From IMG/VR virus record IMGVR_UViG_3300003323_000575, positions 2,235 to 37,062 of that record: 34,828 nt of DNA; one strand, 5' to 3'. The position numbers and the translations under genes were made by a program. This document shows, piece after piece, positions 24,389 to 28,039 of the stretch. Within the stretch, counting starts at the first letter, position 1. The number at the start of each line of letters is the position of its first letter. This stretch comes from a virus. The notes beneath the pieces were generated by a model, which worked only from the letters and a program-made list of their open reading frames with translations, made no database searches and was not told the DNA's origin.

Positions 24389-24832
24389 TTAAAGAACATG
24401 AGCAAGTAGAGCAGCCTTGTAAGCTAGTGCTGCTTCTTGTGCAGTTTTAAAACTTCCTAGATAGTTTAATCGTCTATTTATTCGAATGTGGGCTACCCAC
24501 TTCCTATTCTTTTTGTGATAAGTTACACCTTTATAGCCAGAAGTGTTGCTGGCTATTAAACCCTGAAGCAGGTGATTGGTCGAGTGGGTAACAAACTGCA
24601 AGTTATTCTTTGTGTTATTTAAACCGTTTTCGTCCTTATGGTGGTTGATTAAACCAGGAGGCGGTGGGTTTACAATGTTGTGCATTAATATAGTTGTAGG
24701 CCCCTTTTCCGTTTGAACCGAAGCTGCGGCATAACCAGAGCTTAGGTAGAACCAACTATATTTTTTAACCTTATCAAAATCCTCGTCGTCAATGAGAGCC
24801 TTCTTATCTTGAGTTAGATTTACCTCTTTCAT
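24389..24832 (-). CDS. HNH-AP2 homing endonuclease-type protein
   Basis: Predicted free-standing DNA endonuclease that spreads its own gene. Seen: 147 residues; an N-terminal LTQDKKALIDDEDFDKVKKY module; an HNH core with H51, H64/H65 and N70-N77 (LMHNIVN, NHHKDENGLNNTKNNL); and a C-terminal AP2-type DNA-binding module (TSGYKGVTYHKKNRKWVAHI … LGSFKTAQEAALAY). It starts inside the stop of the polymerase gene (ATGA) and is visibly A+T-richer than its neighbours, suggesting separate acquisition. Its N-terminus is nearly the same as that of the HNH gene at 26499 (MKEVNLTQ versus MKEINLTQ), so the two are probably recent relatives. Catalytic residues look intact. Confidence 0.88.
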   Translation of the reverse strand: MKEVNLTQDKKALIDDEDFDKVKKYSWFYLSSGYAAASVQTEKGPTTILMHNIVNPPPPGLINHHKDENGLNNTKNNLQFVTHSTNHLLQGLIASNTSGYKGVTYHKKNRKWVAHIRINRRLNYLGSFKTAQEAALAYKAALLAHVL

Positions 24833-26502
24833 ATTTTACCAATCAAACTTTTTTCACTAAACGCCCAATCAGTGCCATACGTACCTTCGAAGGGGATAGT
24901 AATTGGAAGTCCCGCGATGATAAGCTCGTTGTTAAAGTATTGCCGTATCTTGTTAATCGCCCAGCGGGTATCTTCGACGCGGAATTGTCCGATGAGCGAG
25001 TCATGAACCGTGTGAAGAGGCTGGATACGGATTTTCTGATTGGAGTCGTAATTGTCTGGATCTGTCCAAAGTTTGTGTAAGGCAAGAACGGTTGCATAGG
25101 TGGTGTTTTCTTGTGGTTCGTTTGCGAGTGCTTGGCCGAGGATTTCGTTGTAGCGACCGAAGAATGTGCGGGTGTGGCCGGAGGCGGAGGATAACTTTGG
25201 AGGGTAGGGTTGTTTGCGGAGTTTGTCGGTAGTAGCGGCGTGCCATTTTTCAGGATGATAGGCGGCGTAGACCGCTTTTCGGAAGGCTTCAACGTCCGAA
25301 CGGGACATGTTAATCTTGCCCTCGGATTGGGTGAAGATGATGTCGGATAGGAGGTCGACGCCCATGAGGTAGCAGATACCCCAGATGCCGACTTTACACA
25401 TAAAATAGTCGAAGTCTTCCTTTTTTATCTCCTTTAGCAGGACTTTAATTTCATCCCGAGACTTCCCTTTAAGTGAATCGTTTCCATGTCGTAACATATA
25501 GGCGAGACGCTGAGCTGGTTTAATCTTCGCCCTAAGGTCGTCAAGCATTGTTGGTTCACCAAGTTTGTAAAGATGTGCTCCCACTGTCCACCCGTCAGCA
25601 CCACTAAGGTCACATTGGAAGAGGTAGTATCCGTCATCAGCAATGAACAAATCCCGCATACCCTCGTGCAAAGGGTGCCCGACGGGCCGTAGTGGATTCT
25701 CCTGGGGAATCGTTTGTAGATTGTAACCAGAGCCGGTAGGCGAGGTGTAACATGTAAGGCGTCCGGTCTCAGTTCCGACAAGGTTATATCCACACCGTAC
25801 TCGTCCATCACCATCCGCAGAGATTTCCAACATCTGAGCGCGGGTCCGTAACTCAGCAATCGAATAAGCCAGGTCGACTGAGGATTTTGCTTTTTCCGTG
25901 ATGGGTTTATGGGCTCCGAGGACCAGGAGAGCCTCGGCGTTCGCTGTCCGGGAGCGCTCCGACTTTTCCTTGTGCTTATCTTTTTTGTCATATTGGATAG
26001 GGAGTTTGAGTTCGTCGTAGAGGTAGGTTTTGAATTCGGGCGAGCGGATGTTTAGAGATTTTTCGAGGACGACCGAGATGTAACCGAGCTGCGTGGGTGA
26101 TAGATTGTCCGGAGCGGCGAGATAGTGCATAATGACATCGTGATGGAGGATGTAGTCCGCTTTGACCTTAGAACTATCCCGCTTATGGCACATGATTTCT
26201 TTAGCCATTGTCCGAATGGCGGTTTTGTCGGTGGTTCCAAGCCCACGGCCAGATAGAACGTCCAGTTGATACTGGAGGCCGTGGATTTGGTCTTTAACCA
26301 CGGCGAGGCGCTTCTTGGCGAGGGGGGTGTCGTATCGGATTCCTCGCAACTCCATGGAAAGGAGCGGGTTGAGAAGGTCCATGTTGAAGCGGTAGTGGGC
26401 ACGAGCGCGGTCTTTGACCCATTTTTCGAGCTTCTCGTTGATTTCATAGGTTACACTGGAATCTTTGCAGCAGTAGGTATGGAATTTTTCTAAGTCGGTC
26501 AT
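24829..26502 (-). CDS. DNA polymerase A, C-terminal (polymerase) fragment
   Basis: Catalytic half of the replicative family A polymerase. Seen: 557 residues; exonuclease motif III YCCKD (residues 10-14) at the very start; a thumb-like helical region; TETGRLT (244-250); motif A CDLSGADG with D298; motif B K370-x3-W374-x3-Y378; and motif C VHD (H500, D501). Exonuclease motifs I and II are not here but in the gene at 26927-28039, so the protein begins within the exonuclease domain. Trp374 stands where E. coli Pol I has Phe762, and Tyr378 is followed by Leu rather than Gly. It begins in an ATGA overlap with the intervening HNH gene and ends in one with the next HNH gene. The two halves must assemble to restore proofreading. 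Confidence 0.9.
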   Translation of the reverse strand: MTDLEKFHTYCCKDSSVTYEINEKLEKWVKDRARAHYRFNMDLLNPLLSMELRGIRYDTPLAKKRLAVVKDQIHGLQYQLDVLSGRGLGTTDKTAIRTMAKEIMCHKRDSSKVKADYILHHDVIMHYLAAPDNLSPTQLGYISVVLEKSLNIRSPEFKTYLYDELKLPIQYDKKDKHKEKSERSRTANAEALLVLGAHKPITEKAKSSVDLAYSIAELRTRAQMLEISADGDGRVRCGYNLVGTETGRLTCYTSPTGSGYNLQTIPQENPLRPVGHPLHEGMRDLFIADDGYYLFQCDLSGADGWTVGAHLYKLGEPTMLDDLRAKIKPAQRLAYMLRHGNDSLKGKSRDEIKVLLKEIKKEDFDYFMCKVGIWGICYLMGVDLLSDIIFTQSEGKINMSRSDVEAFRKAVYAAYHPEKWHAATTDKLRKQPYPPKLSSASGHTRTFFGRYNEILGQALANEPQENTTYATVLALHKLWTDPDNYDSNQKIRIQPLHTVHDSLIGQFRVEDTRWAINKIRQYFNNELIIAGLPITIPFEGTYGTDWAFSEKSLIGKI

Positions 26503-26930: not shown

Positions 26931-28039
26931 CGCTTGTCCTCTTCTTGGATACGTTCGTCTTTCCAGTAAGGTTCAGATGTTAATACCGACGCTTGAAAGG
27001 CTAGAGATTTAGGAAGTTCTGGATAGAGTTCCCAGAATTTTAACATTGTATCGTCAACAACACCACGAACAACAATGCCATAGGAGTATTGGAGAACAAA
27101 ACGGTCATATAGACTGTTTTGTAGGACTTTAGGTATGTCCGGGGAACATAACACTTTTGCAGTTTCTCGCCAAATGTGAACTTCTTCATCGAGGCCCCAA
27201 AAACTCGATCCGTCCATCTTGGTGAAGGGTATAATAAAAGAGGTCATAGCCGAGGTGGCTATACTCAGACAAGATAGTGTACCTACTCCGCCTTCGATGT
27301 CGACGCTGATGAGTGGTTTTTCGTTTTGGATTCTTCTTAGTTCGTGGATGAGTTCGTCGAAGCTTAGGTTTACCTTTAAAGCTCTTTGTGGTAGCTTTAG
27401 TTCGGGGAATAGGCTTTCGGGTTTTACCTTGCATACGCAGTCAAGAAGAAGTTGAGGGATGAATTCGTAGTTACGTAAACAGTAAGCTGGGTGATAGGAG
27501 GCGATACATTTTACGTCCGGTAAAGGGCTATTAGGGTGAGAAATAAATAGGCTCCCCCGCCAGTCAGAGATACTATTAGGAAAAGAAAACTGAGGGCCGT
27601 CCTTCGTTTTCCGACGTTTTGGGGCGTAGTCAGAACCGCACTTAAAAGCATGAAGTGCACTACTGCCAAGTAGCCATATAAGATTGGGCCGTGGTGTAAG
27701 GGATTGGAGGTCATGAGTTAGGGTGATTAGACCGGATTGGATTTCGGGGCCGGACCAGTCGAAGTATGCGAGTTTATTTTTGTAGGGTTTGTGTTGACAG
27801 ATGTTCCCGATGAAGCAGGCGTCCCGGAGGATGGAGGCTCGGTCGAGGGCTTTTGTGAGTTCGCGACCAGAGGCTCCGAAGAATGGGACGCCGGAGTCGA
27901 TTTCGTCCTGGCCAGGTGCTTCACCGATGATGGCAAGGTGGTATTGGGTGTTAGTAATCGTCGGAAAGACATTTTTAACAGTGCGGGTGGAGTGTTCGGA
28001 GGAGGGGATTGCGAGTTCGTCGAATGGGTCAGGTTTCAT
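26927..28039 (-). CDS. UDG-like domain plus N-terminal exonuclease part of DNA polymerase
   Basis: Seen: 370 residues. Residues about 30-205 are a uracil-DNA glycosylase superfamily domain (family 4/5-like): GEAPGQDEIDSG (39-50), FFGASGREL and the late motif YHPAYCLRN (182-190). Residues about 240-370 are the start of a 3'-5' exonuclease: motif I SVDIE (D247, E249), motif II LQNSLYDRFVL (N308, D312), then GVVDDTMLKFWEL and LPKSLAFQASVLTSEPYW. Motif III follows in the separate gene at 24829-26502. A UDG-like domain at the N-terminus of a phage polymerase is known from SPO1-type enzymes. The family-4 Fe-S cysteine pattern is not evident, so glycosylase activity is uncertain. Confidence 0.88.
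   Translation of the reverse strand: MKPDPFDELAIPSSEHSTRTVKNVFPTITNTQYHLAIIGEAPGQDEIDSGVPFFGASGRELTKALDRASILRDACFIGNICQHKPYKNKLAYFDWSGPEIQSGLITLTHDLQSLTPRPNLIWLLGSSALHAFKCGSDYAPKRRKTKDGPQFSFPNSISDWRGSLFISHPNSPLPDVKCIASYHPAYCLRNYEFIPQLLLDCVCKVKPESLFPELKLPQRALKVNLSFDELIHELRRIQNEKPLISVDIEGGVGTLSCLSIATSAMTSFIIPFTKMDGSSFWGLDEEVHIWRETAKVLCSPDIPKVLQNSLYDRFVLQYSYGIVVRGVVDDTMLKFWELYPELPKSLAFQASVLTSEPYWKDERIQEEDKR

Follow-up and report, generated by a model that had tools for sequence, protein, structure and literature searches.

The Split Polymerase Locus

Can a replicative DNA polymerase be cut through its proofreading site and still be kept by the phage that encodes it? This question is raised by a stretch of 34,828 nt (the window; positions 2,235 to 37,062 of IMG/VR record IMGVR_UViG_3300003323_000575) from a phage known solely from environmental DNA, in which a family A polymerase gene with a uracil-DNA glycosylase (UDG) domain is interrupted by an HNH gene. 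With a probability of about 0.8, we consider that a homing endonuclease split the gene and that the two chains reassemble into a proofreading polymerase, the exonuclease site being shared between the subunits.

Three open reading frames (ORFs) followed one another on the minus strand, in the order 28039-26927 (370 aa), 26930-26499 (143 aa), and 26502-24829 (557 aa). The N-terminal half (26927..28039) carried a UDG domain at residues 30–192 (Pfam UDG, 2.3e-16) and the exonuclease core with motifs I (D247 and E249, in DIE) and II (N308 and D312, in QNSLYDR). The C-terminal half (24829..26502) opened with exonuclease motif III (Y10 and D14, in YCCKD) and continued into the polymerase domain (Pfam DNA_pol_A, 1.1e-10), with DLSGADG at residue 298 and HDS at residue 500, which we take to be polymerase motifs A and C. 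All five exonuclease residues (D, E, D, Y, D) were present, spread over the two chains. The coordinates and motif residues reported in the initial annotation of this DNA agreed with the sequence, and the evidence below supports its interpretation in the main. The DNA polymerase family phrog_17 of PHROG matched both halves, the upstream one at profile positions 706–788 and the downstream one at 802–1231, and the family profile matched the UDG TM0511 (1vk2) at 9e-30. The domain order was that of PaBG-type UDG-exonuclease-polymerase enzymes, although these are single polypeptides and here there were two ORFs and an HNH ORF. The DNA_pol_A domain, the exonuclease residues and the polymerase columns D658, K730, H859, and D860 (numbering of the intact relative L007) place it as a putative Klenow-like family A enzyme.

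The gene between the halves (HNH2; 26499..26930, minus strand; 143 aa) was a free-standing HNH_3 endonuclease gene, overlapping the N-terminal half at its start and the C-terminal half at its stop by the four bases ATGA. The region was 100% identical in a second record (IMG/VR 3300003321_000468, 47.5 kb; loci L005 and L009), which may not be an independent assembly, and a relative from another sample, L029, had the same arrangement; mis-assembly is therefore unlikely. No second copy of the polymerase-bearing half was found in the 37-kb record.

Intact Relatives and the Probable Break Point

A single intact gene was found in viral contigs, as L007 (917 aa) and L006 (924 aa), so that the uninterrupted relatives which the initial annotation had proposed to look for do exist. 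Both were about 62% identical to the C-terminal half of the window and 52–54% identical to the N-terminal half. Across 135 intact relatives, similarity to the one half rose with similarity to the other (Spearman 0.76), and of the four intact sequences nearest to each half, three (L018, L007, and L006) were the same. The proposed derivation of the halves from one enzyme was thereby borne out, and an origin from two different enzymes was ruled out, as both halves tracked the same relatives. When cellular genomes were scanned with the family profile, 41 stretches gave a match, but not one was confirmed as a copy.

In intact L006 and L007, 13 residues separated the K of EPYYK/EPFYK from the Y of motif III. 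The upstream protein of the window continued past SEPYWKDE with RIQEEDKR, and the native joint would most simply be KDERIQ/TDLEKFHTY, because the window then fits the 13-residue spacing, with EEDKR and a new Met belonging to the insert. The earlier claim that SEPYWKDE reads directly on into TDLEKFHTY needs amending: the upstream protein does not stop there, and the continuation is not literal, since a five-residue tail and a new Met have been added. By comparison with intact L006, L007, L010, and L018, the insert would span 445 nt (26500..26944, minus strand), between CAA (Q365), with which the native N-terminal half would end, and ACC (T2), with which the native C-terminal half would resume. 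HNH coding sequence took up 431 of the 445 nt (26500-26930). The length is not a multiple of three, and the insert has its own start and stop. L006, L007, and L018, which are close intact relatives, carry no insertion there.

Recurrence of the Break

Profile scans, single-sequence scans and named phage records together yielded 335 polymerase-ORF loci, representing 229 distinct polymerases, 11 of which were broken. Seven of the 229 were broken at the same link as the window (the window itself, L029, L037, L041, L086, Caulobacter phage Kuura or L001, and its relative L177) and four elsewhere (L004, L063, L178, and L233). What occupied the break differed. The window and L029 had an HNH gene with ATGA overlaps in both; Kuura had two small ORFs with no Pfam match; L177 had three ORFs, one of them an RNase H (3157-3678; Pfam 6.7e-7); and in L037, L041, and L086 a TAA was followed by an ATG 3–9 nt on, with GGAGG immediately before the restart in L086. 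In Kuura, the N-terminal half was annotated as a hypothetical protein.

The seven same-link splits fell into four groups in an IQ-TREE phylogeny of 42 rows, requiring four changes, all forced by starred branches. In a FastTree phylogeny of 145 rows including ten broken genes, seven changes were needed, at least six of them forced. These counts do not set the direction of change; repeated fusion, which would need a split ancestor, is possible. Counting one event per clade and ignoring ascertainment (Kuura was found with the halves of the window, and L177 with Kuura), the chance that four of seven independent breaks fall within about 14 of 880 residues was 0.0005 under a uniform distribution and 0.0002 if the link is one of 58 equal loops. 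With L233 added as an eighth break, these values were 0.0011 and 0.0003, respectively, and with only three same-link events of seven the chance rose to 0.024. The same link, inside the catalytic site, is broken in four clades and kept. The break in the exonuclease site and the HNH gene noted at the outset were both present, but the break was not unique to this phage, and three of the four clades had it without an HNH gene. The occurrence of breaks at the same spot in other phage lineages suggests that the pieces reassemble into a working enzyme.

The breaks elsewhere were of several kinds. L004 (ctLwi270; 1727-4364) was split after motif III, with an NrdR-like zinc-ribbon ORF separating the exonuclease domain from the polymerase domain. 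In L178 (Vibrio phage vB_VspS_VS-ABTNL-3; 2953-6087), the UDG-exonuclease-polymerase was broken close to motif A of its polymerase domain, right after NLQNLPKGDG; a 184-aa ORF with no Pfam match lay between the halves, which were annotated as separate genes. An overlapping frameshift just before polymerase motif A was the same in two records (L063, 6159-6172; L064, 6709-6722) and could be a real split or a shared error; the Tyr of motif III is Gly there. The break of L233 was near the C-terminal end.

Conservation and Selection

All seven same-link splits kept the exonuclease residues D247, E249, D319, Y381, and D385 and the polymerase residues D658, K730, H859, and D860 (L007 numbering). Between the window and L029, nonsynonymous divergence (dN) was 0.29 in the N-terminal and 0.25 in the C-terminal half, against synonymous divergence (dS) of 1.5 and 3.1. 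The corresponding values were 0.33 and 0.33 (dN) and 1.5 and 1.2 (dS) for Kuura and L177, and 0.48 and 0.34 (dN) for L037 and L041, with dS saturated in the N-terminal half and 2.7 in the C-terminal half; the intact pair L006 and L007 had a dN of 0.29 with dS saturated. As dS was near or past saturation, only the direction of dN/dS is informative, and it indicates that both halves are under purifying selection. Together with the conserved residues, this lends indirect support to the view that the halves would rebuild an active enzyme.

The Break in the Predicted Structure

The intact L007 protein was modeled with AlphaFold2 from a 36-row alignment, giving a mean predicted local distance difference test (pLDDT) score of 92.4, and the top structural matches of the model were Pol I and Klenow structures. 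In this model, the break maps to residues 372–374, a three-residue turn between helices 367–371 and 375–396; motif III (Y381 and D385) lies on the latter helix. The N-terminal half is therefore predicted to keep the exonuclease sheet with motifs I and II, and the C-terminal half to begin with the motif III helix. Klenow has 11 extra residues at the link in the profile alignment, a sign that link length may be free to vary. A tethered read-through model of L037, in which the chains are joined, had pLDDT below 50 only at residues 337–345 and 349–364, around the break; it is consistent with a surface link and says nothing on the association of free chains.

In L037 (4992-6074), the N-terminal half ends at the break in a long acidic tail of about 25 residues, which is shorter in L041.

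The HNH Genes

HNH2 matched Pfam HNH_3 at 26.9 bits (cutoff 24.8) and phrog_99 at 1e-23. As an independent ORF with an HNH_3 domain, it belongs to the free-standing HNH class, its homing function being putative, and L006 and L007 are relatives in which the site is empty. Two further HNH genes in the operon, HNH1 (24389..24832, minus strand), which adjoins the C-terminal half and has an AP2 domain, and HNH3 (29603..30076, minus strand), which lies outside the split, were 28–39% identical to HNH2 and to each other. AP2 similarity fell below the Pfam cutoff in HNH3, and HNH2 had neither an AP2 match nor a GYKGV-like stretch. Homologues of these HNH genes were present in 19 of the 335 loci and lay inside the polymerase only in the loci with the window sequence (L005, L009, and L058) and in L029; the remainder were upstream of the polymerase, directly after its stop codon, or farther downstream.

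HNH1 likewise overlapped the stop of the C-terminal half by ATGA, and 4-base overlaps occurred in 6 of the 16 neighboring ORF pairs listed for the window operon. Because such overlaps are common there, the ATGA arrangement is ordinary operon punctuation and not specific to HNH genes. Promoter-like and terminator-like sites inside the operon (5 and 7) gave no signal against the numbers expected by shuffling (6.4 and 6.7).

A Proposed Course of Events

We propose that a free-standing HNH gene inserted into a UDG-exonuclease-polymerase gene in the ancestor of the window phage and L029, and that it would have landed in the short inter-helix link before exonuclease motif III. The ATGA overlaps suggest termination and reinitiation, in which a ribosome ending one ORF would start the next and both halves would be made from one message. 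The N-terminal half (UDG and exonuclease core) and the C-terminal half (the last exonuclease helix, with motif III, and the polymerase) may then dock into a Klenow-like enzyme, the exonuclease sheet of one meeting the motif III helix of the other, such that the proofreading site would be shared by two chains.

Several points weigh against this course of events. Most same-link events are known from only one or two metagenome contigs, and the record containing the window (G000) is partial, so that an extra polymerase may lie elsewhere in the genome. The HNH proteins in the breaks of the window and L029 were only 32–33% identical, no closer to each other than to HNH proteins at other sites. The present gene may accordingly not be the one that made the insertion, and replacement or separate insertion is possible; given so low an identity, the HNH gene in the break appears to turn over faster or to have been replaced. 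Furthermore, with no HNH gene in the break in three of the four clades, it may have entered an existing break. As the cause of every same-link split, an HNH gene was ruled out, being present in only two of the seven.

A bolder idea, which we regard as unlikely, is that the link before motif III is a natural subunit boundary, at which at least four conversions to two subunits (by homing genes, insertion or stop-restart) were kept because the ratio of N- to C-terminal halves sets the share of proofreading enzyme and, with it, the mutation rate.

Relation to Known Split Genes

Comparisons here and below draw on excerpts of the cited papers. In Aeromonas phage Aeh1, nrdA is split by mobE, an HNH gene, and full enzyme activity is restored by the two resulting chains together (PMC2988022). 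The two cases share a free-standing HNH gene that interrupts a critical region of a gene for an essential enzyme; this enzyme is a ribonucleotide reductase there and a polymerase here, where the same link is broken in four clades. The T4 mobE gene overlaps the nrdA stop as UAAUGA, which was read as suggestive of translational coupling (PMC2988022). Gene 43 of Aeromonas phages 25 and 44RR encodes a split replicative polymerase, and in phage 25 the break contains a homing gene. The products 43A and 43B purify together and show polymerase activity; for phage 25, it has been argued that the homing gene entered a break that was already there (PMC2988022). Gene 43 encodes a family B enzyme with a seg (GIY-YIG) gene, whereas the window has a family A enzyme with a UDG domain and an HNH gene, broken inside the exonuclease active site.

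Most members of the MEP401-type phage group encode their family A polymerase as two ORFs separated by a small one (PMC10580990), as in the window, but there it is the polymerase domain that is broken, the exonuclease is whole and the small ORF is of unknown kind. Homing endonuclease genes also occur in the DNA polymerase genes of SPO1 and Bastille (I-BasI) (PMC11878797), there in self-splicing group I introns, as opposed to the two proteins of the window. PaBG and the Lupandier phages encode a UDG-exonuclease-polymerase with the same domain order as one uninterrupted protein (PMC7412058), unlike the window. A single DNA polymerase is named in the Kuura paper, and no word starting with "split" occurs in its main text (PMC9959647). 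In the excerpts covered by a literature search, no description was found of a family A enzyme whose break separates exonuclease motif II from motif III. Genes fragmented by homing endonucleases, or around them, are already known; the new element is recurrent fission through this exonuclease active site.

The locus shows where a replicative polymerase can be cut yet kept by evolution, and that the cut may cross a catalytic site. One 14-residue link, broken in four clades, provides natural split polymerases for testing assembly and the coupling of proofreading to it, and for testing whether homing genes exploit or create permissive links. As Kuura is cultured, its same-link split can be tested now. 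Its hypothetical protein also illustrates how, in phages of this sort, half of the polymerase can escape annotation.

Alternative Explanations

One rival reading changes nothing but the sequence of events. A stop-restart break may have come first at a permissive link, with the HNH gene settling in the gap later and the chains still reassembling. We consider this possible but doubtful. Three same-link splits (L037, L041, and L086) have no insert, the gap is filled by other genes in Kuura and L177, the usual place of HNH genes of this family is outside the polymerase gene, several of them right behind its stop, and the same order has been discussed for phage 25 gene 43 (PMC2988022). Against this, no intermediate was seen in the nearest intact relatives (L006, L007, and L018), and both members of the split clade of the window and L029 have the HNH gene. 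It is improbable, by comparison, that the gene is decaying, with the C-terminal half acting alone as an exonuclease-deficient polymerase and the N-terminal half surviving as a UDG. The polymerase domain does lie in the C-terminal half, and family A polymerase domains without a working exonuclease can polymerize, as in exo-minus Klenow and Taq. Useless motifs would be expected to drift, however, and the exonuclease residues were retained on both chains in all seven same-link splits, with both halves under purifying selection at rates like those of the intact pair.

Splitting into two proteins must also be set against a self-splicing intron that would hold the HNH gene and leave a mature message for one full-length polymerase, which is very improbable. 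The nuclease of the SPO1 polymerase intron is I-HmuI, and those of the SPO1 and Bastille introns are HNH enzymes. Introns in these polymerase genes (PMC11878797) and the splicing of fragmented genes around HNH genes in ICP1 (PMC10448857) provide precedents. In the window, the 431 coding nucleotides of the insert leave no room for a ribozyme outside the ORF. At E up to 5, Rfam matched no intron family in either the window or L029, and at E up to 1 it gave no intron in the gaps of L177 or Kuura; the folding of the insert RNA was unremarkable (z -1.2, with 13 of 100 shuffles at least as good); and the stop-restart gaps of L037, L041, and L086 are only 3–9 nt. Splicing into one chain, which the initial annotation named as a refutation of its claim of two polypeptides, found no support in size, Rfam or folding. 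A group I intron with an HNH ORF was rejected, as neither size nor Rfam gave a ribozyme core, and an intein with an HNH domain was ruled out by the out-of-frame length of 445 nt with its own start and stop. Sequencing or assembly error is hardly credible. Two frameshift-type breaks elsewhere in the survey (L063/L064 and L233) could be such errors, but the identical second record, the arrangement of L029 and the fact that three of the four same-link clades each include two diverged members argue against it here.

Neighboring Genes

HNH3 lies in the same operon behind a gene (30073-31575, minus strand) in which a ParB N-terminal domain is fused to an N6/N4 DNA methyltransferase. Similar genes were found upstream of the polymerase in several relatives.

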